IMG/VR virus record: IMGVR_UViG_3300008954_000112
Location: 1-39,844 of that record
Length of the DNA: 39,844 nucleotides
DNA from: a virus
Strand: one strand, 5' to 3'
Position 1 is the first letter of the stretch. Every line of letters starts with the position of its first letter. Position numbers and translations under genes: made by a program. Under the pieces are notes generated by a model. It saw only the letters and a list, made by a program, of their open reading frames with translations, ran no database searches and was not told the origin of the DNA. This document shows, one piece after another, positions 6,238 to 39,844 of the stretch.

Positions 6238-7346
6238 TGTCATATTTTAATAAAAAAGAAGAAGTTATGCATATTGAATTGACCCAGTATGGTAAGCACT
6301 TGCTTTCCAAGGGTGACTTCAAGCCTGTATATTATTCTTTTTTTGATGATGACATTACCTACGACTGGGAATACACGGGAGACACAGCCGAAAAACAAAA
6401 CTATGCACAAGATAGAATCCTGAGCGAGACTCCATCGCCAAAGCCACAATATGTTTTTTCTGGGAGAGAGTCAAACATCACAGAAATAAACGAACTTATT
6501 CGCAATAACCGCACAGGGCTGAGGGATAAGAAAGCCCAACAAACGCCCGAGAAACACTATGCGTTATCTGCACCGCTGGGCAACTCCAGTGCTTCATCCG
6601 TTTACGCACCTTCTTGGTCGGCAAAAGCCTTGCGAGGCAGCTTCTCATCGTCTTTTCGTTACCAGCAGGCAGCACAGCCCACGTTGCACATCCCGCAACT
6701 GAATGTCGATGCCGTTAAATGCAGGAGCGAAATAAAGCTTGATGCCCCTCCAGACACTGAGGGTAGCGAGTTTGGGGGGATACACCAACCCGGAACATTC
6801 GGCTCAACTGGTACTTCAGGGGAATTGGGTTTGGCAACTCAGCAATATGAGGACGGTTCGTGGATTGAAGTCCTATCTGACCACCTTTTATTTGAAGTGG
6901 ATGAGCCAAATACAGATTGTTTAAAAGAAAATTTTGATATTGAAATCTTCCTTGTTGAAGATGTCGATATGACTGGGAAAGTGAATACGCCCGGTCGCCC
7001 AGCCGATGCACAGGGAAAGGTGGAAAAGCTTGTTCCATTAAAGTTTGGGAAAAGGTGGACAAACATTGTTAATGGGGTCTTGGTTGATGACCCTCCTGCA
7101 CCAGAGATTTATAATTACGACCCAACATTTGTTGAGCATTATTTTGACATCCGAGTCGATAAAGAGATTGAGCCACAGGTGTTGTGTGATGCCAATGTTG
7201 TGGCAGACGCTACCAAGTGTGGCGGGCTGGATGCAGGCTTCTTGAACTGCGCTGAACGCGGCGGCACCTCGACAACGGGCGGCATTTATGGAAGTTCAAC
7301 AGCCTCGGGTGACACTTCTCAGGGTCCATATGGAGATGACTGCTAA
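6237..7346 (+). CDS. Virion protein with attachment-like N-terminus
   Basis: This 369-residue protein starts at an ATG overlapping the previous stop (TAATG), with a GAGG site about ten bases upstream. Residues 12-42 read LTQYGKHLLSKG followed by FKPVYYSFFDDDITYD. That is the same plan as the N-terminus of the gene at 13654 (LTDTGRARLAKG, then a phenylalanine-rich stretch ending DDEIDY), and resembles the N-terminal domain by which many fibre proteins attach to a baseplate. The middle is rich in Ser, Pro and Ala; the C-terminus is Gly, Ser and Thr rich with several cysteines. No enzymatic motif is seen. It sits between two very large virion genes and is probably translated with them. I infer a baseplate or tail-associated structural protein; the exact role is unknown. 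Confidence 0.75.
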   Translation: MSYFNKKEEVMHIELTQYGKHLLSKGDFKPVYYSFFDDDITYDWEYTGDTAEKQNYAQDRILSETPSPKPQYVFSGRESNITEINELIRNNRTGLRDKKAQQTPEKHYALSAPLGNSSASSVYAPSWSAKALRGSFSSSFRYQQAAQPTLHIPQLNVDAVKCRSEIKLDAPPDTEGSEFGGIHQPGTFGSTGTSGELGLATQQYEDGSWIEVLSDHLLFEVDEPNTDCLKENFDIEIFLVEDVDMTGKVNTPGRPADAQGKVEKLVPLKFGKRWTNIVNGVLVDDPPAPEIYNYDPTFVEHYFDIRVDKEIEPQVLCDANVVADATKCGGLDAGFLNCAERGGTSTTGGIYGSSTASGDTSQGPYGDDC

Positions 7347-23016: not shown

Positions 23017-23399
23017 GTGAAAAAAAGAATTGGGACCGCATTGCAAAGATAGAAAAGGCAGTTAAAGAGCAGTATGGCGATGAAGCTGTAATGAACCCCA
23101 AAGCGGAATGGACTGATGAAGCCGAGATAAGTTATCTTGAGCAGTTGAAGCAGATGGCTGAGAAAGAAAGGCTCTGGCGTTCCAAGACAGAAAAGGTCGA
23201 AGTCGATGAGGGCTTTTTTGTTTCCAAGAAACTACTTAACACTGAAGACATGGCTGCTAGAGATTGCCCTGTATGCAAAAACTATTCTTTCGACCCGAAA
23301 GACGATTTGTATATGAATAAATTTCAGTGCTGCTGGTCTTGCTATATTGACCACATACAAGGAAGAGAGGAAAGATGGAATGACGGCTGGCGACCCTAA
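23013..23399 (+). CDS. Small protein with C-terminal zinc ribbon
   Basis: A 128-residue protein whose ATG overlaps the previous stop (ATGA), implying coupled translation. The first 75 residues are charged and helical. The C-terminal part holds C85-P-V-C88 and C106-C-W-S-C110, four or five cysteines arranged as two knuckles 18 residues apart, which should bind one zinc ion. No DNA-binding or enzymatic motif is evident outside the ribbon. It could be a regulator, a packaging factor or a structural adaptor. Its place just ahead of small genes that lead to the terminase does not settle this. It overlaps the next gene by 20 bases. Confidence 0.6.
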   Translation: MSEKKNWDRIAKIEKAVKEQYGDEAVMNPKAEWTDEAEISYLEQLKQMAEKERLWRSKTEKVEVDEGFFVSKKLLNTEDMAARDCPVCKNYSFDPKDDLYMNKFQCCWSCYIDHIQGREERWNDGWRP

Positions 23400-24072
23400 A
23401 TATAACATCACCCAACAACAATACGAACGGGTGGTAAAAGAAGAATTTGTTTCGATGCTCCAAGAAGAATATGGAGATAGCGTTCTGGAAGAAGGTTTCT
23501 GGGATAAGCTAAAAGGCGGTGGAAAGAAAATCGTCAAATCATATGTTAATGTTTTCAAGGCTTATGCAGAGGTGGTCGAAGACCTACTCGGGCTTGAGCC
23601 TGATGACCCGAAGATGGATGCCGTGGGAGAAGAAGTCCCAGACCCAGAAGAACTTGCACAGGATGTAGCATCTGGCGAAGGCGATGCCGCAGGCGAGGCG
23701 ATGGACGATATGGAGGCTAACCTTGACGCACTCAAGGGCAAAGCAGCCGATGACCCCGAAGCAGCCAAGAAGGTCGATGCCCTGATTGCACAGGTTCGCC
23801 AGCAGGGTGACGCCATGGCGCAAGCTTCCGGCGGCGCGTCAGGCGGTGGACCCGAAGGTGAAGGCGGGGGAGAGCCGACAGAGGACTCTCCTGCTTTATT
23901 GGATTTGCTTGACGCTGTTGCAGACGAGTGGGACGAAATTCAAGGTAAGACCAAAGACGGCAGCTTGAAGAAGGCAATGGGCTATATCGAAAAGATTGCT
24001 CTTGCTGAAATTAAACGACAGCGCGGGCTTAAAAAGCTAAGGGCTGTAAGGGAGAAAAGAAAAAATGGCTGA
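23380..24072 (+). CDS. Acidic protein with IIxEE-type N-terminal tag
   Basis: I choose ATG 23380 (230 residues) because GAGAGG lies nine bases before it; an upstream TTG at 23347 has no such site. Residues 9-22 have the form N-I-T, three residues, Y, two residues, V-V-K-E-E-F, which aligns without gaps to the N-termini of the genes at 25182 and 26499. A second E-E-G-F-W-D-K-L-K motif follows near residue 37. The centre is acidic and Ala-rich (about 70-140), then a Gly-rich linker (about 148-170), then a basic C-terminal helix. Composition and position suggest an internal head or scaffold-associated protein, but no function is recognised. It overlaps the following start by eight bases. Confidence 0.6.
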   Translation: MTAGDPKYNITQQQYERVVKEEFVSMLQEEYGDSVLEEGFWDKLKGGGKKIVKSYVNVFKAYAEVVEDLLGLEPDDPKMDAVGEEVPDPEELAQDVASGEGDAAGEAMDDMEANLDALKGKAADDPEAAKKVDALIAQVRQQGDAMAQASGGASGGGPEGEGGGEPTEDSPALLDLLDAVADEWDEIQGKTKDGSLKKAMGYIEKIALAEIKRQRGLKKLRAVREKRKNG

Positions 24073-24619
24073 AATGAGCGTATTAGATATCGTTAGAGGT
24101 ATCTCACAAGCAGTTGCAAATGTGCATGATGGTGCCCTCGACGAAGATGGAAATCCAGTTAAGATTGGGCTTCGCAGAGAAGAAGAAGTAGGCATCCGCG
24201 ACCCCCGCGTCATGGATGGCTTTCGCGTTTCTATGGTCGGCAACCAGTTACAGGTTAAATACCACAGCGAGGTCACGATGGATGAAGCCCACGATAAGAA
24301 TTTTGAATCAGACCTTGGCTCTCGGCTTGAGAACATTGCTTCATTTATTAAAAAAGAATACCGCAAGGTCACCAAGTCATCCTTAAATTTGAAGAAGGTT
24401 GGCGACATGGATGCTTATGTGCAGTCTGTCGGTGCCCACCGCAATTGGGTTCAGGCTACCTGTATTTATGAGGTTGGCTCTTTGGGCGAGGATGTTGAAC
24501 CAGCCCTTCAAGGCTCCAGCGAAGACAGGCTTGATAAGTCCATCAGAAGCTGGCTTGACCAAGGCAGAAAGGGGAAGGCTAAGAACGACAAGCGTCCTGC
24601 CGAGAAGGAGGACAAGTGA
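24065..24619 (+). CDS. Conserved phage protein of unknown function, 184 aa
   Basis: Starts at ATG 24065 inside the end of the previous gene, with a GGGAG site upstream. The product begins MSVLDIVRGISQA after four residues and includes a GLRREE motif, an R-x-M-D-G-F strand at about 46-51, a Y-H-S-E-V segment and a lysine-rich acidic tail. It looks like a compact globular alpha/beta domain with no cysteine cluster or nucleotide-binding motif. From memory, proteins with this opening are widespread in marine myoviruses, usually unnamed. A virion role, perhaps at the neck or head completion, would suit its place between small genes and the terminase, but that is only an inference from context. Confidence 0.6.
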   Translation: MAEMSVLDIVRGISQAVANVHDGALDEDGNPVKIGLRREEEVGIRDPRVMDGFRVSMVGNQLQVKYHSEVTMDEAHDKNFESDLGSRLENIASFIKKEYRKVTKSSLNLKKVGDMDAYVQSVGAHRNWVQATCIYEVGSLGEDVEPALQGSSEDRLDKSIRSWLDQGRKGKAKNDKRPAEKEDK

Positions 24620-24936
24620 TGCGAAGAAAACATAAGAAGTTTATTGACCCCCGTTACTTTATGAATGAGAAGGCTGAAATGCCTCGGTATGATGAGCAAG
24701 ATGCCCCGTATGACACGGAAGCCGAAGCGCAACATCAACAGGAAGAAGATGCAGAGGACCAAGCACAAACAGAAGCTGCAAGGCAGATTTTATCGCACCT
24801 TTCCCAGATTCAAGAGATTTTGGAATCAGACGCAGCCCGTTTTCTGGGGCAAGGGGATACACGCCCCATCATAGGAAACATCACCGCAGCCCACGACCAT
24901 TTTAAAGATTTGGTCCAATACTTGGAGAAATACTAA
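24619..24936 (+). CDS. Small protein with KKFI(D/N)PRYF N-terminal tag, copy 1
   Basis: A 105-residue protein starting at ATG 24619, overlapping the previous stop as TGATG, with an AAGGAGG site upstream. An extra GTG at 24616 is not needed. Residues 6-17 (KKFIDPRYFMNE) match the same positions of the next gene almost exactly, while the rest of the two proteins differs. The M-N-E at 15-17 resembles the [LI]-x-E sites cut by T4-type prohead proteases. The central part is very acidic and Gln-rich, and the C-terminus is helical. I infer an internal head protein delivered by a targeting tag, but this is untested. Confidence 0.55.
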   Translation: MRRKHKKFIDPRYFMNEKAEMPRYDEQDAPYDTEAEAQHQQEEDAEDQAQTEAARQILSHLSQIQEILESDAARFLGQGDTRPIIGNITAAHDHFKDLVQYLEKY

Positions 24937-24937
24937 A

Positions 24938-25171
24938 ATGAGCAGAAATAGAAAAAAGTTTATCAACCCCAGATATTTTTTGAATGAAACGGTAGAAGAG
25001 CCGCAGCAGTTTGCTGGAGATTTAGATACCGTCGCAGCGGCAAGCGAAGAAATTGAAAGAGTCCTCAATCAATTGTCCGACAGTGGGGTAGACAACGCCG
25101 GGTTAAAGGCTCTGCCCCAGAACATCATTAAGGACATTGATGATGGATTTGTTACAGGCTACATAACATAG
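24938..25171 (+). CDS. Small protein with KKFI(D/N)PRYF N-terminal tag, copy 2
   Basis: A 77-residue protein that follows the previous stop by one base; GGAG lies about 12 bases upstream. Residues 6-17 (KKFINPRYFLNE) repeat the tag of the preceding gene at the same position, with L-N-E at 15-17 as a possible prohead-protease site. After the tag the protein is acidic and helical and ends in a short V-T-G-Y-I-T. Beyond the tag I see no similarity between the pair, which suggests the tag, not the body, is the shared functional unit. It may be a scaffold accessory or an internal head protein; the function is unknown. Confidence 0.55.
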   Translation: MSRNRKKFINPRYFLNETVEEPQQFAGDLDTVAAASEEIERVLNQLSDSGVDNAGLKALPQNIIKDIDDGFVTGYIT

Positions 25172-25181
25172 GAGAACCGAC

Positions 25182-26018
25182 ATGAAAATCACCAAAGGAC
25201 GATTAAAACAAATTATCACAGAAGAAATGGGCAATCTTAGGCGCAACCCCAACGGCGGCACCTCTTTGTCTGAAGCCCAAACCCCAACCATACTCGCTGC
25301 CATTCAACTACAAAACGAGGCTAAACGTGCAGCAATGGCGCTGCTGGATGCCTCTAAGGAATTCGCACAGATGCCAAGCCATGAACCTGCAAGTTCGGTA
25401 GCCAGCTTTGTTGAAAAAAAGGCAAACCTTATTGTTGATGTGATGGTTGAGCAGGGGCGCCACCTTACTTCTTACCATAATTATCAGAATGACCTCGCTG
25501 AAGGCGATGACCATTCCAGAACAATTACTCAAATTGAAACAATCGGCGATGTCGTTCTTGAGGTCGTGGGTATGGTTGACAACCCAGAAGCTGTTGAACG
25601 GCTTGAGAGGGTTGACCAAATGGTTACTGACCTTCTCGCACAAATGCAGGGTGTGTCGCAAGGTGCCGACGCTGATGGATACAGTAAAATAGCGGGTCAA
25701 CGTCCAATGCAAGAAGACCTCGCCAGTGATACAGCCAAGGCTTATGCCAGTCTTGACAGTGCTTTGTCGCAGGCTGAACAGATGGCAGACGAATTGGTCG
25801 GCATCGAAGAATATATTAGTGACCCTGATGTTGCAGAGGTTGCTGCACAATCAACACAAGGGCTTGTTGCTGCTTTGGATGCCACCAGCACCGCTGCACA
25901 GCAGCTTGTCGGTGTGGTCGATGATGAGTTGGGGGCAGGCGATGAAAAGAAAACACAACTTCGACATGCAGGCGTACCCGGCGCAAAGTCAGTAAAAGAA
26001 ATTGAACGAGGGCGATAA
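25182..26018 (+). CDS. Helical protein with IIxEE-type N-terminal tag
   Basis: A 278-residue protein with a TAGGAG site before the ATG. Residues 1-16 read MKITKGRLKQIITEEM, the clearest example of a tag shared with the genes at 23380 and 26499. The body is almost wholly helical, Ala/Glu/Gln-rich, with long heptad-like stretches at about 40-130 and 180-250, and a basic tail ending in E-R-G-R. I recognise no catalytic site or DNA-binding motif. It could be a prohead core component or an internal protein packaged with the genome. A TerS-like role is also possible from its place ahead of the terminase, but the length and fold do not clearly fit. Confidence 0.55.
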   Translation: MKITKGRLKQIITEEMGNLRRNPNGGTSLSEAQTPTILAAIQLQNEAKRAAMALLDASKEFAQMPSHEPASSVASFVEKKANLIVDVMVEQGRHLTSYHNYQNDLAEGDDHSRTITQIETIGDVVLEVVGMVDNPEAVERLERVDQMVTDLLAQMQGVSQGADADGYSKIAGQRPMQEDLASDTAKAYASLDSALSQAEQMADELVGIEEYISDPDVAEVAAQSTQGLVAALDATSTAAQQLVGVVDDELGAGDEKKTQLRHAGVPGAKSVKEIERGR

Positions 26019-26020
26019 CG

Positions 26021-26488
26021 ATGGCGACAAAGGTTACAGTTGGAAAGCTGCAAGTTAGCGTGACCGAGGCAGTGAAGGTTAACGGAGTAGAGCATGTTTA
26101 TAACAATGTGTTTTCTGTCGCTGGCATTAACACGACCGCACAGAGAATCATCCGTGTTCCAACTTCAGCCCAGACAAGCTTAGTTACTTTTGACAACAGC
26201 GGCTCAACTGGAGCAGCGGGAACCTATGTTGCTGGCGATATTAAATATATCCGCGTTACAAACTTGGATGACACCAATTATGTGACGCTTCGGCTTGTTG
26301 ATACCAGTGCAGACACTGCATACTTTAAACTGGCTGCGGGTCAGACGATGGTATTTTATGATAACAAACTTGAGGTAAAAGCGGACGGCGGCGCATGGGC
26401 AGCTTGGGCGAACCTTGATAATATCGCTGCACAAGCAAACACTGCCTCTGTCGATGTTGAATATTTTGTTGCGTCAAAGCAATCATAG
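26021..26488 (+). CDS. Beta-rich virion protein, possible decoration protein
   Basis: The 155-residue product starts two bases after the previous stop, with GAGGGCG upstream. It is rich in Thr, Val, Ala and Asn, with alternating hydrophobic strands throughout, including a Y-I-R-V-T-N-L-D-D-x-N-Y-V-T-L-R-L strand pair at about 84-100. There are no cysteines, no signal and no catalytic motif. Such a composition is typical of small head-decoration or tail proteins. It stands among the tagged small genes just before the terminase, but lacks the tag itself. Assignment as a virion protein is an inference from composition and context. Confidence 0.55.
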   Translation: MATKVTVGKLQVSVTEAVKVNGVEHVYNNVFSVAGINTTAQRIIRVPTSAQTSLVTFDNSGSTGAAGTYVAGDIKYIRVTNLDDTNYVTLRLVDTSADTAYFKLAAGQTMVFYDNKLEVKADGGAWAAWANLDNIAAQANTASVDVEYFVASKQS

Positions 26489-26498
26489 GAGATTACAA

Positions 26499-26783
26499 AT
26501 GAAAATTAGTAAAGAACAGATTAGAAAAATTATCAGAGAAGAATATAAAGCTGTTAAAGAAGGGCTTGTTCCGAAGGAAAAGGTTAACCAAGCCGCACAA
26601 CAACTCGGGTATATGCTGGTGGGACAGCCCCCAGCAGCAGCAGCCGTGCGCGATGCCCTTGCTGAGACGTATCCTGAAGCTGCGAAAGCACTATATACTG
26701 CTTATAATAGAGCGCAATCTGAAGCCGATATGATGTACAGCGGAGACTACGACGATGATGACTATGGTGTTTCAGACATCTGA
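26499..26783 (+). CDS. Small protein with IIxEE-type N-terminal tag
   Basis: I place the start at ATG 26499, which has a TAGGAGA site; the in-frame upstream codons overlap the previous gene and lack a site. The 94-residue protein opens with MKISKEQIRKIIREEY, matching the gene at 25182 position by position, including the I-I-x-E-E core. A K-E-G-L-V-P-K segment, an Ala/Gln-rich helical middle and an acidic Asp/Tyr-rich tail follow. It is the last gene before the large terminase, where a small terminase subunit often sits, and its size is compatible, but I see no helix-turn-helix. I leave it as a tagged head-associated protein of unknown function. Confidence 0.55.
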   Translation: MKISKEQIRKIIREEYKAVKEGLVPKEKVNQAAQQLGYMLVGQPPAAAAVRDALAETYPEAAKALYTAYNRAQSEADMMYSGDYDDDDYGVSDI

Positions 26784-26823: not shown

Positions 26824-28410
26824 ATGCCACACCCGTTAACAAAGCAACAAATATTAAAAGAGATTGTCCATTGTGGCAAAGACCCTGCTTATTTTTTAAA
26901 TAATTACGCAAAAATTTCTCACCCAATGCACGGGCTAATCCCCTTCCGCACATATGGCTTTCAAGACCAGCTTCTCACAGATTTTAACGACCACCGCTTT
27001 AATGTAATTTTAAAAGCCCGACAGCTTGGTATCTCGACTATCACTGCGGGCTATGTTGTTTGGATGATGCTGTTTCACCGAGACAAGAATGTCTTGGTCA
27101 TGGCAACGAAGTTTGGCACAGCAGCCAACCTAGTTAAAAAAGTTAAAAACATTATGCGGCATTTGCCCAACTGGATTAAGATAGCGACTATTTCTGTTGA
27201 CAACCGCACATCTTTTGAGTTATCAAATGGTTCTCAAATTAAAGCATCTTCTACCAGTGCTGATGCTGGACGTTCAGAAGCCTTGTCTCTCCTTGTGATT
27301 GATGAGGCTGCACACGTTGAGGGGCTTGATGAGTTGTGGACTGGTCTATACCCCACGCTGTCAACTGGTGGTCGCTGCATTGCCCTTTCAACACCAAATG
27401 GCGTTGGTAACTGGTTCCACCAAGCTTATGTCGGAGCAGAGGAACAGTCAAATGACTTTTACCCAACCAAGTTGCCGTGGGATGTCCATCCAGATAGAGA
27501 TTTTGCTTGGTTTGAAAATGAGACAAAGAACATGTCTCGCAGACAGATTGCACAGGAACTTGAGTGTAACTTCAACATGTCAGGCGAAACTGTTATTCAT
27601 TCTGATGACATTGCCAAGCTTCAAGAGGCTGCGGAGACACCTCGACACCGCGCTGGCTTCGATAGAAACCTGTGGCTTTGGGACGAATACAATCCAGAAC
27701 ACTCTTACTTGCTTGTTGCCGACGTTGCCCGAGGCGACGGTCGAGATTATTCAGCATTTCACGTTATTGACATCACAGAGATGAAGCAGGTTGCTGAATA
27801 TCAGGGTAAAGTTGAATTGGATATGTATGCTATGTTTCTTTCTGACACGGGAAAACAATTTGGGAATGCAATGATAGTCGTGGAAAATAATAATGTTGGC
27901 TACGCAGTGTTGACTAAATTAGAAGATATGCAATATGCACATCTCTACTATTCGACCAAGGGAAGTCACGAATATGTTGACTCATATGCCGCCCGCAGCC
28001 ACTCCAACGCAGTGCCGGGATTCACTACGTCGATGAAAACTCGCCCTCTTATTATCGCAAAGCTGGAAGAATTCATTCGTAACGACCTAATTACTATTAG
28101 GTCTTCAAGACTACTTAATGAATTAAAAACCTTTGTGTGGAACAATGGGAAGCCCGAGGCAATGAAGGGATATAACGATGACCTTGTTATGTCGCTGGCA
28201 ATTGGGTGCTGGGTGAGGGACACTGCCTTGGTTTCAAATCAAAGAGATGTGGAGTATAGAAAAGCTTTTATGAATGCCATGACAAAAACAAATTCAACAC
28301 TTAACACAAAGATATCAGGTATGATAGGATATGATGGTACAAAGTACGAAGCAGAAGCAAAGCAGACCGAAGAATTAATGAAACAATTTCCGAGTTTATT
28401 TAAGGGGTAA
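26824..28410 (+). CDS. terL: Terminase large subunit (T4 gp17-like)
   Basis: The packaging motor: it cuts concatemeric DNA and drives it through the portal by ATP hydrolysis. The 528-residue product has an N-terminal ATPase with a non-classical Walker A at 64-72 (KARQLGIST), Walker B LLVIDE with D160-E161, and a coupling motif S189-T-P-N-G. The C-terminal RNase H-like nuclease has D300 (ADVARGDGRDYS), E354 (VVENNN) and D452-D453 (YNDDLV). It is shorter than T4 gp17 (610 residues). No recognised small terminase lies upstream, though several small genes there could be candidates. The ATG has only a weak purine-rich site. The portal gene follows after seven bases, the usual arrangement. Confidence 0.95.
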   Translation: MPHPLTKQQILKEIVHCGKDPAYFLNNYAKISHPMHGLIPFRTYGFQDQLLTDFNDHRFNVILKARQLGISTITAGYVVWMMLFHRDKNVLVMATKFGTAANLVKKVKNIMRHLPNWIKIATISVDNRTSFELSNGSQIKASSTSADAGRSEALSLLVIDEAAHVEGLDELWTGLYPTLSTGGRCIALSTPNGVGNWFHQAYVGAEEQSNDFYPTKLPWDVHPDRDFAWFENETKNMSRRQIAQELECNFNMSGETVIHSDDIAKLQEAAETPRHRAGFDRNLWLWDEYNPEHSYLLVADVARGDGRDYSAFHVIDITEMKQVAEYQGKVELDMYAMFLSDTGKQFGNAMIVVENNNVGYAVLTKLEDMQYAHLYYSTKGSHEYVDSYAARSHSNAVPGFTTSMKTRPLIIAKLEEFIRNDLITIRSSRLLNELKTFVWNNGKPEAMKGYNDDLVMSLAIGCWVRDTALVSNQRDVEYRKAFMNAMTKTNSTLNTKISGMIGYDGTKYEAEAKQTEELMKQFPSLFKG

Positions 28411-28417
28411 GAAATAA

Positions 28418-30358
28418 ATGGCTGAAGACAATATCAATAACAATCAGAATATCAAGAATGAACAATCAGCACTCTTTAAGAGGCTAACAAGATTGTTCTC
28501 TGGTCCTATTGTAAATCGCAGACAACAGAACCGCAGAAAGTTTAGAAGAAAGGCTCTCGACAACTACGCCACTCGATTTGTGTCAGCGTCTGGAAAGCAA
28601 TTCCAGAAAACGCACTATAATCCGTTTGAGCAAATCACGTCCGAGGCGATGAACAACCGGCTTAGAAATGAGCGGTATGTTGATTTCGACCAGATGGAGT
28701 ATGAACCCATTATTGCGTCCGCACTCGATATTTATGCAGACGAAATGACATACCACAATGAGTTAAAACCCATTATTAATATTGAATGTACCAATGAGGA
28801 AATCAAGTCAACGCTTTCTGCTCTTTATAAGAGCGTGTTGAATATTGAATTCAATCTTTATGGATGGTGCCGCACCATGTGCAAATATGGTGATTATTTT
28901 TTGTATGTGGATATTGACGAGACAACTGGTGTCAAATCGTTTGTGCCCATGCCTGTTTCCGAGGTGGAAAGGATTGAGGGCGAAGACCCAACAAACCCCA
29001 ACTATGTTCAGTTTCAGTGGAACTCTGCTGGGTTGACATTTGAAAATTGGCAGGTTGCCCACTTTCGTATTTTAGGTAATGACCGATACGCTCCATACGG
29101 TACGTCTATTTTAGAGCCAGCCCGACGAATCTGGCGTCAGCTACATCTTCTTGAAGATGCTATGATGAGTTATCGCATTACCCGCTCACCCGAACGACGG
29201 GCGTTTTATATTGACATCGGGAATATTGCCCCGCAGGATGTTGAGCAGTACATGCAGAAGGTCATGACCCAGATGAAGCGTTCGCAGATTGTGGATAGCA
29301 GCACAGGTCGCGTTGACCTCCGATACAACCCCATGAGCATTGACGAGGACTATTTTATTCCTGTCCGTGGCGGGGAGTCTTCAAGAATTGAATCTTTGCC
29401 GGGTGGAAGCTATACTGGTGACATTGATGATGTAAAATACTTGAGAGATAAGCTTTTTGCTGCCCTCAAGGTTCCACAATCTTATCTTTCCCGTGGCGAA
29501 GGCGCTGACGAGGATAAGACTACACTTGCTCAGAAAGATATTCGCTTTGCACGCACAATCCAGCGCCTTCAACGCTCGGTTGTCGCAGAACTTGAAAAGA
29601 TTGGCATCATTCACCTCTATACGCTGGGCTATCGTGGCGATGACTTGGTGGCATTCCGTTTGAAGCTTAACAACCCTTCTCAAATTGCAGCGATGCAAGA
29701 GTTGGAACATCTTCGCACAAAGTTTGACGTTGCAGGTGCCGCCACAGAAGGTTACTTTTCCAAGCAATGGGTGTATCGGAATATCTTTGCGCTCTCGGAA
29801 GAAGAAGTGTTGCGAGTGCAGCGTGAAATGTTTTATGATAAGAAGTTTGAAGCGCAGCTTGAGAAAGCAGCCGAAGAAGACGAACCATCTGAGGAAGAAG
29901 GTGGTGGTGAAGAAGGCGGCGACATGGGTGGCGATGACCTCGGCGCCGACGGCGGCGGTGACGATGGAGGTGGTCTTGGAGGCGACCTCGGTGGCGACGA
30001 AGAAGGTGGAGAGGAAGAAGAACCAGAGACTGGCGACCTTCTTGCTGCACCAGCCAAGCGCGAGACATATACAACCCCCGGAGCAAAGGGCAAGATGTAT
30101 ACCAAGGTTACTGACGATACAAGAGACATGGGTGCCCGCAAACGCTCTATCCGCTCAAAGTGGGCGTATGATAGCACGCAGAATACAACCCAAAATGTTT
30201 TCAAGGGCTTGGGCGACCTAGTTTCTTTATCAAAAGGGATTTCGGAAACTATTTACGGTGAGGATGATGAAAAACTTCTTTTGGAAGTTAATCGGGAACT
30301 TTCAACTCAGGAAGTTCAAAATCTGATTGATGGCTTAGACAACAAGCACGGAGAATAA
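28418..30358 (+). CDS. Portal protein (T4 gp20-like) with acidic Gly-rich insert
   Basis: The 646-residue protein should form the dodecameric ring at one head vertex through which DNA is packaged and ejected. It follows terL directly and begins with a polar Asn-rich tail; the core contains the typical portal features R-R-I-W-R-Q-L-H-L-L-E-D-A-M-M near residue 238, followed by an R-x-x-R-S-P-E-R-R stretch and an S-Y-L-S-R-G-E-G-A segment. Residues about 485-543 form a run of Glu, Asp and Gly (over 85 percent of the stretch) absent from T4 gp20, followed by a more ordinary C-terminal region of about 100 residues. A similar run occurs in the scaffold at 37208. AAGGGG precedes the ATG. Confidence 0.9.
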   Translation: MAEDNINNNQNIKNEQSALFKRLTRLFSGPIVNRRQQNRRKFRRKALDNYATRFVSASGKQFQKTHYNPFEQITSEAMNNRLRNERYVDFDQMEYEPIIASALDIYADEMTYHNELKPIINIECTNEEIKSTLSALYKSVLNIEFNLYGWCRTMCKYGDYFLYVDIDETTGVKSFVPMPVSEVERIEGEDPTNPNYVQFQWNSAGLTFENWQVAHFRILGNDRYAPYGTSILEPARRIWRQLHLLEDAMMSYRITRSPERRAFYIDIGNIAPQDVEQYMQKVMTQMKRSQIVDSSTGRVDLRYNPMSIDEDYFIPVRGGESSRIESLPGGSYTGDIDDVKYLRDKLFAALKVPQSYLSRGEGADEDKTTLAQKDIRFARTIQRLQRSVVAELEKIGIIHLYTLGYRGDDLVAFRLKLNNPSQIAAMQELEHLRTKFDVAGAATEGYFSKQWVYRNIFALSEEEVLRVQREMFYDKKFEAQLEKAAEEDEPSEEEGGGEEGGDMGGDDLGADGGGDDGGGLGGDLGGDEEGGEEEEPETGDLLAAPAKRETYTTPGAKGKMYTKVTDDTRDMGARKRSIRSKWAYDSTQNTTQNVFKGLGDLVSLSKGISETIYGEDDEKLLLEVNRELSTQEVQNLIDGLDNKHGE

Positions 30359-32270: not shown

Positions 32271-32573
32271 GTGGCTTTGGATAAATATAGGGTTCCCGCA
32301 GGGGTCAAGATAAGACCCTCACAAGTGGGGCATTACAACTTTTGGTATCCGCATGAGAAGCAAGAATATGTTTCAGGGGATTCGTTTGTCTGCGAAGGTT
32401 TATCTTGGCAGGGTTCGGGCAACTGGCAAGCCATCGCCGTTTCTTTTGAAGAAGCTATCACATATCATTCGCCCATTAGGGTACTTTGGGTAGAAAAGAA
32501 TCTATTTAAAAACATGAGAAAGGCTCCGCTGATTAGGGAGCAACTAAAAGCGAGGGCAGATAGCGATGAGTGA
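32271..32573 (+). CDS. Small protein of unknown function (GTG start)
   Basis: A 100-residue protein with GTG at 32271 preceded by AAGGAG (32262-32267). The first 70 residues look beta-rich, with several Trp and Tyr residues (FWYPHEKQEY, then SWQGSGNWQAI), which suggests a small barrel or SH3-like fold. The C-terminus is basic and helical. It is the first gene after a terminator and overlaps the prohead protease gene by eight bases. I recognise no family; a role in head assembly is inferred from position alone. Confidence 0.6.
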   Translation: MALDKYRVPAGVKIRPSQVGHYNFWYPHEKQEYVSGDSFVCEGLSWQGSGNWQAIAVSFEEAITYHSPIRVLWVEKNLFKNMRKAPLIREQLKARADSDE

Positions 32574-33165
32574 GAAAGTGCTTCTAAGAGAATATTACGA
32601 ATTATGTGAAGGTGGCGTCTGTCAGGACTTCTTGACAGAAGATGAAAAGGCGTTTGTTGTGGCTGGTGGTATGTACCTAACTGGTGTCATGCAACGTGCC
32701 GACGCACAAAATGGCAATGGCAGGGTCTACCCCAAGCGTGTCCTCGACCGAGAATTAATGAACTATGCCAAGTTGGTTGAAGAAAACCGCGCCTTGGGCG
32801 AGTTAGACCACCCAGAGGACTCGGTTATTAATTTAAAGAACGCCTCGCACATGGTTACTAAAGTTTGGTGGGATGGCAATGATGTGATGGGGAAGGTTAA
32901 GATTCTTAATACTCCCTCTGGTCAGATTCTCCGTTCTCTTGTAGACTCTGGCGTGAAGCTGGGGATTTCTTCCCGTGGTCTTGGCTCTGTCCATGAGGAC
33001 GCAGGCTCCACTGTGGTTGAAGATGACTTCCAGCTTATTTGTTTTGATTTCGTTTCGGAACCATCCACACAGGGTGCCTACATGATGAAGGAAAATAAAG
33101 AGCCAAACATCTTTACCAAAGCAGACCGTCTTAATCGCTTGCTGAATGAGATTGTCGAGGATTAA
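32566..33165 (+). CDS. Prohead maturation protease (T4 gp21-like)
   Basis: A 199-residue serine protease that in T4 relatives cleaves the scaffold, core and capsid proteins inside the prohead, mostly after [LI]-x-E. The sequence shows the S78/U9-type layout: G78-E-L-D-H82 as the catalytic His site, G133-I-S-S136-R-G as the nucleophile region, and an acidic strand (D-F-Q-L-I-C-F-D) downstream that may supply the third residue. The N-terminal part includes an N-G-N-G-R-V-Y-P motif before the first helix, also typical of the family. It starts inside the previous gene; GAGGGCAG serves as the ribosome site. Its presence gives support to reading [LI]-x-E motifs in neighbouring proteins as cleavage sites. 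Confidence 0.9.
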   Translation: MSEKVLLREYYELCEGGVCQDFLTEDEKAFVVAGGMYLTGVMQRADAQNGNGRVYPKRVLDRELMNYAKLVEENRALGELDHPEDSVINLKNASHMVTKVWWDGNDVMGKVKILNTPSGQILRSLVDSGVKLGISSRGLGSVHEDAGSTVVEDDFQLICFDFVSEPSTQGAYMMKENKEPNIFTKADRLNRLLNEIVED

Positions 33166-33957: not shown

Positions 33958-34716
33958 ATGGCAAGAAGTTTTATATTAGGTGGTGTAGCGGGCACTAGTC
34001 TGGCGACTGGTAAACCCTACTTTAAAAGAATTATCCGTGAAGGCGGTGCGGCTGCTGGACCCACACGGGCAGATGGCTTGACGTGCAAGGTTATTGCTTC
34101 TGGCGATAACCAAGGTGCTTTAAGTTTTGCGACCACTGCTTCAGCGGCAGGCACAGCGACAACAGACGGTAAAGGTACTGACTGGGGCGCAGCCGTAGGC
34201 GAATTGCTTTTTGTTGAATTCCCTTCCACCACAAGAACCTTGTCGGTCCAGTTTGAAGAAATGCATTGCGCTACCTCAAATCATGAAGTCCGCGCCCGCA
34301 TCATGTTGGTGGCTGAAGGTCAGCGTGTTAACGCTTCTTCATCTGGCACGGCTGTTTATGCCACGCCCGTAACGAACAATAACTTTATCGAGATTTCTGA
34401 AGGCGACACAGCAACAATTAATGCTAGAACTAAAGGTGTCTTTATTCAGATTTTCAACGTAAACCTTGAGGGTGCAGGCTCAGGTGCCCAAGCTTCTGGT
34501 TCGGTTTTGGATAACGCAGGTAATTATACTATCATTCCCGGCACAGGCACGGGGAGTGCCAACGACGCCGCAGTATTCTTGGTTACGGCAGTGTTGGACC
34601 AAGACAATAGAAGTGCAGCATCGGTTGACTTCTCAACGGCGACCATCGGCACCGCAGGAACAGTAAATGGTGCCAAGCTTACAAAGATTTGGGGTAACAT
34701 CGACGGCGTTGGATAG
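33958..34716 (+). CDS. Beta-rich virion protein, head decoration or fibre-like
   Basis: A 252-residue protein with an AAGAGG site before the ATG. It is rich in Ala, Gly, Thr and Ser with long beta-forming runs, no signal peptide and only two cysteines. The first residues M-A-R-S-F-I-L-G-G-V-A-G look like an N-terminal anchor strand. The repeated G-T-x-G-x-A and S-A-x-x-A patterns resemble those of fibre shafts or decoration proteins. It begins the cassette between protease-region genes and scaffold, and may be under the weak promoter-like motif before it. No known family is recognised; a virion surface role is inferred. Confidence 0.6.
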   Translation: MARSFILGGVAGTSLATGKPYFKRIIREGGAAAGPTRADGLTCKVIASGDNQGALSFATTASAAGTATTDGKGTDWGAAVGELLFVEFPSTTRTLSVQFEEMHCATSNHEVRARIMLVAEGQRVNASSSGTAVYATPVTNNNFIEISEGDTATINARTKGVFIQIFNVNLEGAGSGAQASGSVLDNAGNYTIIPGTGTGSANDAAVFLVTAVLDQDNRSAASVDFSTATIGTAGTVNGAKLTKIWGNIDGVG

Positions 34717-37207: not shown

Positions 37208-38254
37208 ATGTCCAGCATGTTAGAGCAAGCCATTGTGGATGCCAAGGCTCTTAGAGAAGCCGCAGTAAAGAGTGCCGAGTCGGAGTTACTTGAAAAGTAT
37301 GCCGACGAAATGAAACAAGCAGTAACAAACTTGCTTGAAGTAGAGGCAGACTTTGGTCTGGGCGGCGAAGAAGCTATTGCCCCAGACGAGGCAACAGCAG
37401 CTTATGCCGATGGCGAAAATGTCTGCCCATGCCCCGATGAGGGTCAGGAAATAGAAATTGATTTTAGCGAATTAAGGGCACAAGCTGAAGAAGCTTCGGA
37501 CGAAGGTGAAAAAGGCGGGCTTGGCATGGGTCTTGGTGGAGAAGAAGACCTTGGCGGCGGGCTTGGTGACGAACTCGGCGGCGAAGAAGAAGGCGGTCTT
37601 GGTCTTGGCGATGAAGAAGGCGAAGAAGAAGAATTATCTCTCCAAGAGCAAGAAATGCTTGAAAAGATTTTTAGTGAAGATGTTATTTTAGATATGATGA
37701 AAGAAGCAGATGACGAAGAAGAAAAAGAAGAAGCCGATAGTGATGATGCAGATGACGATGAGTCCAAGGAAGAATCCGAGGAAGATGTTGATGCACTCAA
37801 GGCTGGTTTCCAAGCAAGAGAGGAATCTCTAATGCGAACAATTGCAAAACTTTCTGAAAATTTGAAGCAACAAGGAAAAACAAACACAAAATACAAAAAT
37901 GTCATCTCTAAGGTGACTAGTAGATTAGCCGAGGTCAATCTGTCCAACGCTAAACTACTTTATACGAACCGAGTATTGAACAATACCTCCCTGAATGAGC
38001 GGCAAAAAAATAAAATTGTCGAATCTATTGGAAAAGCTGGTTCTGTTGGTGAGGCGAAAACTATTTTTGAGACACTTCAAAATGCCGTGTCGGGGTCATC
38101 TTCCAGAAGTGGAAGAAGAAGCCCTAATACATTGAGCGAAGCTGTTAGACGAAACAGTTCACCTTACGCACTTCGTGGCAACTCTAAGGAGCCACAAAAC
38201 GCAAACGATGCTTTCTCAGAGAGAATGCGTCGATTAGCAGGAATAAATAAATAA
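37208..38254 (+). CDS. Prohead core scaffold (T4 gp22-like), acidic
   Basis: The 348-residue protein should form the internal core on which the capsid shell assembles and which the protease then degrades. It stands just before the major capsid gene, as gene 22 does before 23 in T4. The N-terminal third is helical; residues about 95-150 are Gly/Leu/Glu repeats (G-L-G-x-G and G-G-E-E), then a run of Glu/Asp to about residue 200, then a basic helical C-terminus with a likely coiled coil. Several [LI]-x-E sites are available for processing. A C-P-C-P motif near residue 74 is odd. AAGGAG precedes the ATG. Sequence match to gp22 is weak, so the call rests on position and composition. Confidence 0.8.
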   Translation: MSSMLEQAIVDAKALREAAVKSAESELLEKYADEMKQAVTNLLEVEADFGLGGEEAIAPDEATAAYADGENVCPCPDEGQEIEIDFSELRAQAEEASDEGEKGGLGMGLGGEEDLGGGLGDELGGEEEGGLGLGDEEGEEEELSLQEQEMLEKIFSEDVILDMMKEADDEEEKEEADSDDADDDESKEESEEDVDALKAGFQAREESLMRTIAKLSENLKQQGKTNTKYKNVISKVTSRLAEVNLSNAKLLYTNRVLNNTSLNERQKNKIVESIGKAGSVGEAKTIFETLQNAVSGSSSRSGRRSPNTLSEAVRRNSSPYALRGNSKEPQNANDAFSERMRRLAGINK

Positions 38255-38282: not shown

Positions 38283-39844
38283 ATGTCTATTCTTAACAAA
38301 CTAACTGAAGGTATTGTTAATCGTGACCTCTCCCGTGAAGGCGCGGCTATTCTCACAAAGTGGGAAAAAACCGGACTTCTTGAGGGACTCGATGACTACA
38401 GTCAGAACACAATGGCGGTTCTACTTGAGAACCAAGCCAAGGAACTTCTTCGGGAGTCCAACTCAATGGCAGGAGGCGATGTCGAAGGCTTCGCTGCTGT
38501 CGCTTTCCCAATTGTTCGCCGTGTATTCGGTGGGCTACTTGCTCAGAAGCTTGTATCCGTACAGCCCATGAGCCTACCCAGTGGTCTTATCTTCTTCATG
38601 GATTTCGTGAAGCAGACCCCCAACATGAGTCATGCTGACAGTGCATATGCTGCTGGTGATGTTCGCTCAGAAATGGACGGTCGTTCAACTGGCGTTGCCG
38701 GTGACCAGCCTTCCGTCTATGGTGGGCAAATCAGTGGTCGTTCGGTTCTCACCTCTGGTGTTGAACTTGACCCCGAAGCCCGTGGTGCAGGTGTTCCTTC
38801 ACCCCAGTTCCAAGACTTGGTTCAAGGTTTCTCACATGCCCGTGGTGTGTGTGTTGCCGAGAACGAGACTTTGGCAAACGGTGGACTTCGCGTTGCGGTT
38901 GAATTCGCCCTTGATGGCGACCTAACCGATGCTCAAGCCCGTGCCATTCAGTTCGACCCAGACCTTATGGCTCGTTCTTCTGGACGAATTCTCATTTTGC
39001 GTGGTCTTTTGAAGGACGCCTCTGGAGACGCCATCGGTTTGGCTACTACCACAGGCGATGCAAACAGCAACAACGGCGGTCACCCTCTCGGTGTTGCTGA
39101 CCGTATTGATATTCTTCGAATGGTTCAGCCTGATGTTCGTCACGTTGACTTGCAAGACGAAGATGGCACGCCTTTGGCTGGTGCGCTCACACTTGCGCCT
39201 GCTGACGTTATGATGGTTCGCCGTCTGAGTCGCGTTGTCAAGGTCACTGCTGCAAACCAGAACGCAGGCTTGCTCACAGGTACTGGTGCAATCACTAACA
39301 CCAACTTCTTGGGCGCAACTTACTTGGAATTGGTGCTTTATAGCCCCAGTACAGGTTTCAGTACTCCTGCTGTTGACGCTGCATTGGGTGGTCAGCTTGC
39401 AATTACGTTCGCAATGAGCGACAACATTGACGAGTCTACCGACCAGTCCAATAGCGACACTCTTGGTGCCCTTGTTGGTTCAACCGCTTGGGAAATGGAA
39501 GGCTCAGTTGACCTCCCCGAAATCAGCATCAAAGTTGATTCCGTGGCTGTCACGGCTGTGACTCGTAAGCTGAAGGCTTCTTGGACTCCAGAATTGGCGC
39601 AAGATTTGAATGCTTATCACAACTTGGATGCAGAGGTTGAGTTGACTGGAATTCTTTCAGAGCAGATTGCTTTGGAAATTGACCAAGAGATTCTTGGTGA
39701 CCTCATCGCAGGTGCCAAGGCTTCCACTCTTTACTGGTCACGCCGTCCCGGTCTTTTCGTTACCCGCACAACGGGTGCCGATGCGACCAGCTTGGCTGCA
39801 CCTCCCGACTTCACGGGTTCCGTGAGTGAGTGGTACGAGACTCT
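38283..39844 (+). CDS. Major capsid protein (T4 gp23-like), 3' partial
   Basis: The frame is open from ATG 38283 to the window end (520 codons), so the C-terminus is missing. Residues about 72-105 read FPIVRRVFGGLLAQKLVSVQPM followed by a P-S-G-L-I-F strand, the hallmark region of T4-type HK97-fold capsid proteins. Near the end of the window stands R-K-L-K-A-S-W-T-P-E-L-A-Q-D-L-N-A-Y-H followed by D-A-E-V-E-L, another strong gp23 signature. A possible prohead-protease site, L56-R-E58 before SNSM, lies in the expected N-terminal region; T4 gp23 is cut near residue 65. The AGGAGG site is 11 bases before the start. The product forms the hexamers of the head shell. Confidence 0.92.
   Translation, partial: MSILNKLTEGIVNRDLSREGAAILTKWEKTGLLEGLDDYSQNTMAVLLENQAKELLRESNSMAGGDVEGFAAVAFPIVRRVFGGLLAQKLVSVQPMSLPSGLIFFMDFVKQTPNMSHADSAYAAGDVRSEMDGRSTGVAGDQPSVYGGQISGRSVLTSGVELDPEARGAGVPSPQFQDLVQGFSHARGVCVAENETLANGGLRVAVEFALDGDLTDAQARAIQFDPDLMARSSGRILILRGLLKDASGDAIGLATTTGDANSNNGGHPLGVADRIDILRMVQPDVRHVDLQDEDGTPLAGALTLAPADVMMVRRLSRVVKVTAANQNAGLLTGTGAITNTNFLGATYLELVLYSPSTGFSTPAVDAALGGQLAITFAMSDNIDESTDQSNSDTLGALVGSTAWEMEGSVDLPEISIKVDSVAVTAVTRKLKASWTPELAQDLNAYHNLDAEVELTGILSEQIALEIDQEILGDLIAGAKASTLYWSRRPGLFVTRTTGADATSLAAPPDFTGSVSEWYET

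Follow-up and report, generated by a model that had tools for sequence, protein, structure and literature searches.

An N-terminal tag shared by unrelated proteins of environmental T4-like phages resembles a capsid targeting sequence

We analyzed a viral DNA stretch of 39,844 bases that makes up the whole of IMG/VR virus record IMGVR_UViG_3300008954_000112 (hereafter the window) and profiled a short N-terminal tag carried by three of its proteins, encoded from positions 23380, 25182 and 26499. This tag (tag A) reads M-K-[IL]-[TS]-K-x2-L-x2-I-I-x-E-E and occupies residues 1-15 of the 25182 and 26499 proteins. It is quite probably a signal for head targeting and processing, the counterpart of the capsid targeting sequence (CTS) of phage T4. 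The initial annotation of this DNA had suggested such a modular head-delivery signal, and nearly all of the predictions that can be examined in sequence held. The proposal is supported by the unrelated bodies of the tagged proteins, a co-encoded prohead protease, a register shared with the T4 CTS, protease-type sites after the tag, the exchange of tags between homologous proteins, and proximity to the head module.

The three window proteins had been described as sharing an ungapped N-terminal pattern. We confirmed its places, and all three proteins match it exactly: ITQQQYERVVKEEF in the 23380 protein (residues 10-23), ITKGRLKQIITEEM in the 25182 protein and ISKEQIRKIIREEY in the 26499 protein (both from residue 3). 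The longer tag-bearing stretches are MKITKGRLKQIITEEM in the 25182 protein and MKISKEQIRKIIREEY in the 26499 protein, and plausible Shine-Dalgarno sequences precede all three genes. The copy in the 23380 protein is shifted seven residues inward and lies at the same place in its relatives (42-88% identical), in which I10, Y15 and K20-E21-E22-F23 are invariant and a later L-[ED]-E-G-F is also kept. The features are listed with their basis in brackets; a slash in a sequence marks a cut or candidate cut.

23380..24072, + strand: tagged protein 1, 230 amino acids, without a confident family match (four relatives)
23407..23448, + strand: tag A copy at residues 10-23, ITQQQYERVVKEEF, with the spacing Y15-x2-V18-V19-x-E21 (sequence; kept in relatives)
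23485..23496, + strand: second protease-like site of the 23380 protein, L36-E-E38/G39, followed by FWDKLKG (L36, E38 and G39 invariant in relatives)
25182..26018, + strand: tagged protein 2, 278 amino acids, predicted mostly helical with low confidence (structure model)
25182..25226, + strand: tag A of the 25182 protein, MKITKGRLKQIITEE (sequence)
25266..25277, + strand: second protease-like site of the 25182 protein, L29-S-E31/A32 (sequence; site statistics)
26499..26783, + strand: tagged protein 3, 94 amino acids, four predicted helices (structure model)
26499..26543, + strand: tag A of the 26499 protein, MKISKEQIRKIIREE (sequence)
26553..26564, + strand: second protease-like site of the 26499 protein, V19-K-E21/G22 (sequence; site statistics)

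The initial annotation had also suggested searching for the pattern at N-termini in related phages. There, the tag recurs widely and far above chance. Across 84 loci (985 kb; loci are numbered with L), we counted 65 occurrences of a loosened motif, 61 of them in the coding sense and 45 exactly at residue 3 after an ATG. Nearly all of these loci were obtained by portal homology, and L001-L002 come from the window itself. Written as degenerate DNA, tag A matched at least 120 stretches in IMG/VR viral contigs, and its codon-order-reversed control matched none. With a looser pattern, 23 large tagged contigs gave 1-17 matches per record, on one strand within each record (control, 0), and 14 random large contigs gave 0 matches. 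The highest number of tagged genes in a record, 17, was found in one of 135 kb.

Conservation among about 330 non-redundant tagged proteins is limited to about residues 1-16. An alignment of 138 tagged proteins had a mean column identity of 6%; MKITKxQLKxIIKEE was its consensus, followed by almost no conservation. E14 and the hydrophobic positions were set by the search pattern and are hence invariant by construction; the pattern was free at residues 2, 5-7, 9, 10 and 13 and at all residues after 15, and residues 4 and 15 were loosely set. That the bodies are unrelated, as noted for the three window proteins, extends to the wider set, where 318 tagged bodies fell into 262 clusters, 238 of them singletons. 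Modularity is also visible within one family, as tag A in L012 is immediately followed by the portion of the 25182 body that runs from residue 105 of the window protein. Pfam matches among the 138 proteins comprised five families with one member each (two GNAT models, FliG_C, FliD_C and DUF6321), and a PHROG scan of the 138 bodies matched only PHROGs without an assigned function. No family of the T4 internal proteins IPI, IPII and IPIII was found among the Pfam and PHROG matches of the three window proteins or among those five Pfam families; for the 23380 protein, a PHROG named internal head protein matched just weakly (E 0.005). By family matching, the tagged bodies are not members of the T4 internal protein families.

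The conserved tag residues are written with mixed synonymous codons, and since these codons are free to vary, the amino acids are what is conserved. This bears on the possibility that the first 45 bp of these genes, whether a recombination cassette or an expression element at the 5' end, owe their spread to gene conversion and have no role at the protein level. Tagged genes do stand in tandem, with a median spacing of 539 bp versus 9.5 kb at random, and some tagged genes of one contig are near-identical at their start. However, the codon variation just described leaves the residues unchanged, the tag persists in phages that have diverged greatly, and the 23380 copy is conserved at residue 10, away from the start codon. 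We therefore regard a DNA-level origin of the pattern as extremely improbable.

In T4 IPIII, which begins MKTYQEFIAE/A, suppressor tests implicate chiefly residues 4 and 7 in targeting and residues 8 and 10 in processing, and the protease gp21 cuts after L/I-x-E (PMC9026906). L8, I11, I12 and E14 of tag A have the same spacing as these four IPIII residues, with E14 fixed by the search pattern. The corresponding arrangement, Phi-x2-Phi-Phi-x-E (Phi, hydrophobic), starts within the first 20 residues of T4 ipII, ipIII, alt, 24 and 68, that is, in 5 of 10 known gp21 substrates versus 6 of the 73 other T4 proteins examined (p 0.003). Tag A further resembles the CTSs of IPI, IPII, IPIII and Alt in being N-terminal, 10-20 residues long and attached to unrelated bodies, and the window, like T4, encodes an S77 protease, a scaffold-position gene, a portal and a capsid protein. 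In IPI, the tag MKTFKEF lies apart from a cut-type site, TITE/A, as tag A does from its second site. It differs from the T4 CTS in its longer and different consensus, in the E that usually follows the first site, and in the second site that is often found downstream. The phages with tag A also have far more candidate cargo genes per phage than T4. A CTS-like function of tag A is well supported, as every CTS feature that can be sought in sequence was found.

Protease-type sites are concentrated directly after the tag. The motif [LIVMF]-x-E is present within residues 16-28 of 74% of tagged proteins, versus 23% of body windows of equal length. At the second residue after L or I near the tag, E is enriched 2.36-fold and D depleted (0.48-fold), versus 0.97-fold for E in the bodies. 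At the residue after the candidate cut (P1'), G, A or S is overrepresented close to the tag, with an odds ratio of 2.46 (p 5e-8), a bias that the bodies lack (0.79). Downstream of the tag there is thus a cut-type site followed by a small residue, as in the CTS, though not in every member. The extended motif is seldom repeated in exact tandem at residues 16-22 (27/306), and the second site is therefore better captured by the short [LIVMF]-x-E rule.

These statistics also speak to whether the tag might be a generic helix, unrelated to the head, that serves oligomerisation or docking to a host target or to a different phage structure, with [LIVMF]-x-E a by-product of amphipathic composition. Hydrophobic residues recur at positions 8, 11, 12, 16, 19 and 20 of tagged proteins, and tag residues 5-20 are predicted to be helical, with an unstructured stretch between tag and body, in the models of both the 26499 protein (mean predicted local distance difference test score, pLDDT, 70; moderate) and the 25182 protein (mean pLDDT 48; poor). 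Such a helix leaves unexplained the enrichment of E alongside the depletion of D, the G/A/S bias after E, the exchange with a T4-CTS-like tag described below, and the proximity to the protease gene, and we consider it very unlikely. The initial annotation had set a dimerisation helix against head targeting; given the amphipathic helix predicted for the tag, the two would fit together.

Tagged proteins could instead be scaffold or core components that, like T4 gp67 and gp68, aid head assembly and are then degraded, so that nothing is injected. Their genes cluster with head genes, gp67 and gp68 also have [LIVF]-x-E sites near the N-terminus, and the tagged proteins of the window are small and predicted to be helical. 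Yet the bodies vary extremely, even from one close relative to the next, which sets them apart from conserved core-module proteins (for example, the 33167 family); some are enzyme-like (for example, a GNAT acetyltransferase), and up to 17 unrelated core proteins in one phage would be implausible. The enrichment of protease-type sites just after the tag, and not throughout the body, also speaks against this reading. We judge this alternative unlikely, though less so than a generic helix.

The initial annotation overlooked that the genes at 24616 and 24938 carry a second N-terminal tag (tag B), KKFI[DN]PRYF[ML]NE.

24619..24669, + strand: tag B on the protein encoded at 24616-24936, MRRKHKKFIDPRYFMNE (sequence)
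24938..24988, + strand: tag B on the protein encoded at 24938-25171, MSRNRKKFINPRYFLNE (sequence; orthologues in L008 and L011 with tag A)

The tag B-bearing 24938 body is orthologous to L008:8179 and L011:8023, which both have tag A and lie in the same place, after a homologue of the gene at 24065. A third tag (tag C), MK[LIQ]hhENW[RN][KN][FY][LI]xE (h, hydrophobic; typically MKLLxENWRKFLxE, in a second form MK[LI]hMEN[WF][RK]KFLxE), resembles the T4 CTS. It is N-terminal in 31 of its 35 occurrences, 22 of them at one offset, and usually has W8, F11, L12 and E14, the register of tag A. The body that follows tag A in L106 has homologues (pairwise E about 1e-25 or better) whose N-termini read MKILMENFKKFLHED in L103 and MSKHKLIMENWRKFLAED in L096. 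L155 and L099 are a further homologous pair in which tags A and C are exchanged, and a weaker case of exchange is the L021 homologue of the L075 body, which begins MKTIMEGWRKFESLIEKAD. These comparisons indicate that tag A is interchangeable with tags B and C on homologous bodies through evolutionary exchange, tags B and C being presumed CTSs. We lean slightly toward a broader reading, in which a large group of environmental T4-like phages, some of them jumbo-sized, shares one head-loading code made up of a few interchangeable tags, A, B (KKFI[DN]PRYF[ML]xE) and C. The code would serve to load sizeable and quickly changing sets of different proteins, reaching 17 or more in a single phage and mostly lacking known relatives, for delivery into the host with the DNA.

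Tag B is also N-terminal in L117, L122, L126, L128, L152, L182 and L383, on mostly different bodies. Tag C is found on many unrelated proteins in related contigs, including L103:5404, L096 (minus strand, 6432-7328), L041, L023 and L354. The gene at 24065-24619, just 5' of the tagged cluster, is well conserved, has no assigned role and is a marker of the module, with homologues in about 100 loci at identities of up to 72%.

The window contains a head module of T4 type, with a terminase, a portal, an S77 prohead protease, a scaffold-like gene and the start of the major capsid gene. Seven genes lie at 23380-26783, all 5' of the terminase, and three of them carry tag A and two tag B.

26824..28410, + strand: T4-type large terminase (PF03237)
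28418..30358, + strand: T4-type portal gp20 (PF07230, E 2.9e-80)
32566..33165, + strand: T4-type prohead protease gp21, Peptidase_S77 (PF03420, E 4e-34; phrog_207, E 8e-56)
37208..38254, + strand: candidate gp22-like scaffold or core protein, acidic, directly 5' of the major capsid gene (position only)
38283..39844, + strand: major capsid protein gp23, truncated at the contig end (ELLRE/S at the expected protease site)

Where a protease cut is expected, capsid proteins from relatives read ELL[RK]E/[AS], and ELLRE/S is the window counterpart. In protease-bearing contigs shorter than 200 kb, 48 of the 70 tagged genes are no more than 15 kb from the protease, against an expected 17. Among tagged genes at most 20 kb from it in such contigs, 48 are upstream and 3 downstream. 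The S77 protease was found in 18 of the 23 large tagged contigs. The portal is also missing from four of the five tagged contigs without S77, so the head module probably lies outside those four fragments.

Several observations weigh against a CTS-like role. About a quarter of tagged proteins have no second [LIVMF]-x-E in residues 16-28. The P1' residue of the first site is E in 88% of tags, which is atypical for T4 gp21, since the N-terminal sites examined in T4 have A, S or D there. In records of 240-290 kb, tagged gene clusters are mostly far from the protease and head genes, as T4's own ip genes are far from gene 21. No S77 protease was detected in G006 (125 kb), which has a T4-type portal and one tag. 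The case for tag A is made from sequence. Co-occurrence with S77 was rejected as stand-alone evidence and discriminates weakly, because the protease is also encoded in 7 of the 14 random large contigs. The initial annotation had likened the [IV]-x-E core to a T4-type prohead protease site, but the E that follows I-I-x-E in most tags suggests that the exact cut may often fall at the second [LIVMF]-x-E instead.

We propose, by analogy with T4 (PMC9026906, PMC3012670, PMC5694885), that the N-terminal residues 3-15, an amphipathic segment presenting L8 and I11 on the same face, would bind the scaffold core during prohead assembly and so bring the attached protein into the prohead. The S77 prohead protease would then cut after the Glu of [LIVMF]-x-E, either at I12-x-E14 or, more often, at a second site about 5-15 residues later. 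For the window, the proposed processing enzyme is the protease encoded at 32566-33165. With the tag removed, the body would remain in the head to be packaged alongside the DNA, and it would probably enter the host by ejection. Tagged proteins would accordingly be expected in virions.

CTSs have already been proposed as a means for T4-like phages to load varied proteins (PMC9026906). While that concept is known, tag A, the scale of its use and the natural swapping of tags are new. No published description of tag A was found in a literature text search for the tag strings, the sole match being unrelated. A tblastn search with the tag consensus and the 26499 protein gave no match among GenBank phages, where the low-complexity filter may hide short tags.

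Other phages have comparable N-termini. The head and ejection proteins of SPN3US and phiKZ have N-terminal propeptides that a gp21-related protease cuts after x-x-E, at several sites, and SPN3US gp53 and gp54 have identical N-termini on diverged proteins, as with tag A (PMC5694885). However, these propeptides are mostly longer than 100 residues and have another cut context, whereas the tag A phages have T4-type portal, protease and capsid genes. In P1 DarB, the first 30 residues are enough to carry a foreign protein into the head (PMC9024508). The Dar proteins differ in having no shared consensus and no established dependence on a T4-type protease, and their sequence is unrelated to tag A. The closest cultured relative with a similar device is the T4-like Flavobacterium phage immuto (MW353176.1, 160 kb), in which four proteins, at about 1.8, 103.8, 117.6 and 118.6 kb (L369, L371-L373), carry the tag MENFDLKKFLVENKLTxNSxxLxE; one of them begins MKKSQLRQIIKEAL. 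The immuto tag differs from tag A in sequence but has the Phi-x2-Phi-Phi-x-E core and, in some copies, a second L-x-E. The literature searches made found no published description of it.

Most genes of environmental T4-like phages are without an assigned role. If tag A works as proposed, a pattern of 15 residues would mark hundreds of proteins without relatives as predicted virion cargo and would also name the enzyme expected to process them. The injected proteins of uncultured phages would become partly predictable from sequence, and, like T4 Alt and IPI, tagged proteins would be candidate agents of host take-over and counter-defence. The tags would also be natural means of loading proteins into phage heads.

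Many tagged genes were also found in contigs filed under bacterial metagenome-assembled genomes: NHDW01000006.1 (L356, L361, L363), PBIO01000025.1 (L357, L359) and DJKT01000043/44 (L364, L358). An S77 protease is likewise encoded in both tag-rich bacterial genomes, in one of them on the contig that bears the tags. The contigs look like misbinned phage, because a 306-kb Methylococcaceae contig with tags also carries an S77 prohead protease. A cellular origin of these matches appears unlikely, as the tag-rich genomes hold S77 and the lone match in a 2.8-Mb chromosome looks like chance.

Within the head region of the window, the protein encoded at 33958-34716 carries the extended protease-type motif as FKRIIRE/G in residues 22-28, away from the extreme N-terminus. 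In G006 (L374, 88000-106000), the portal stands beside split DNA polymerase genes, with an open reading frame resembling a homing endonuclease between them.

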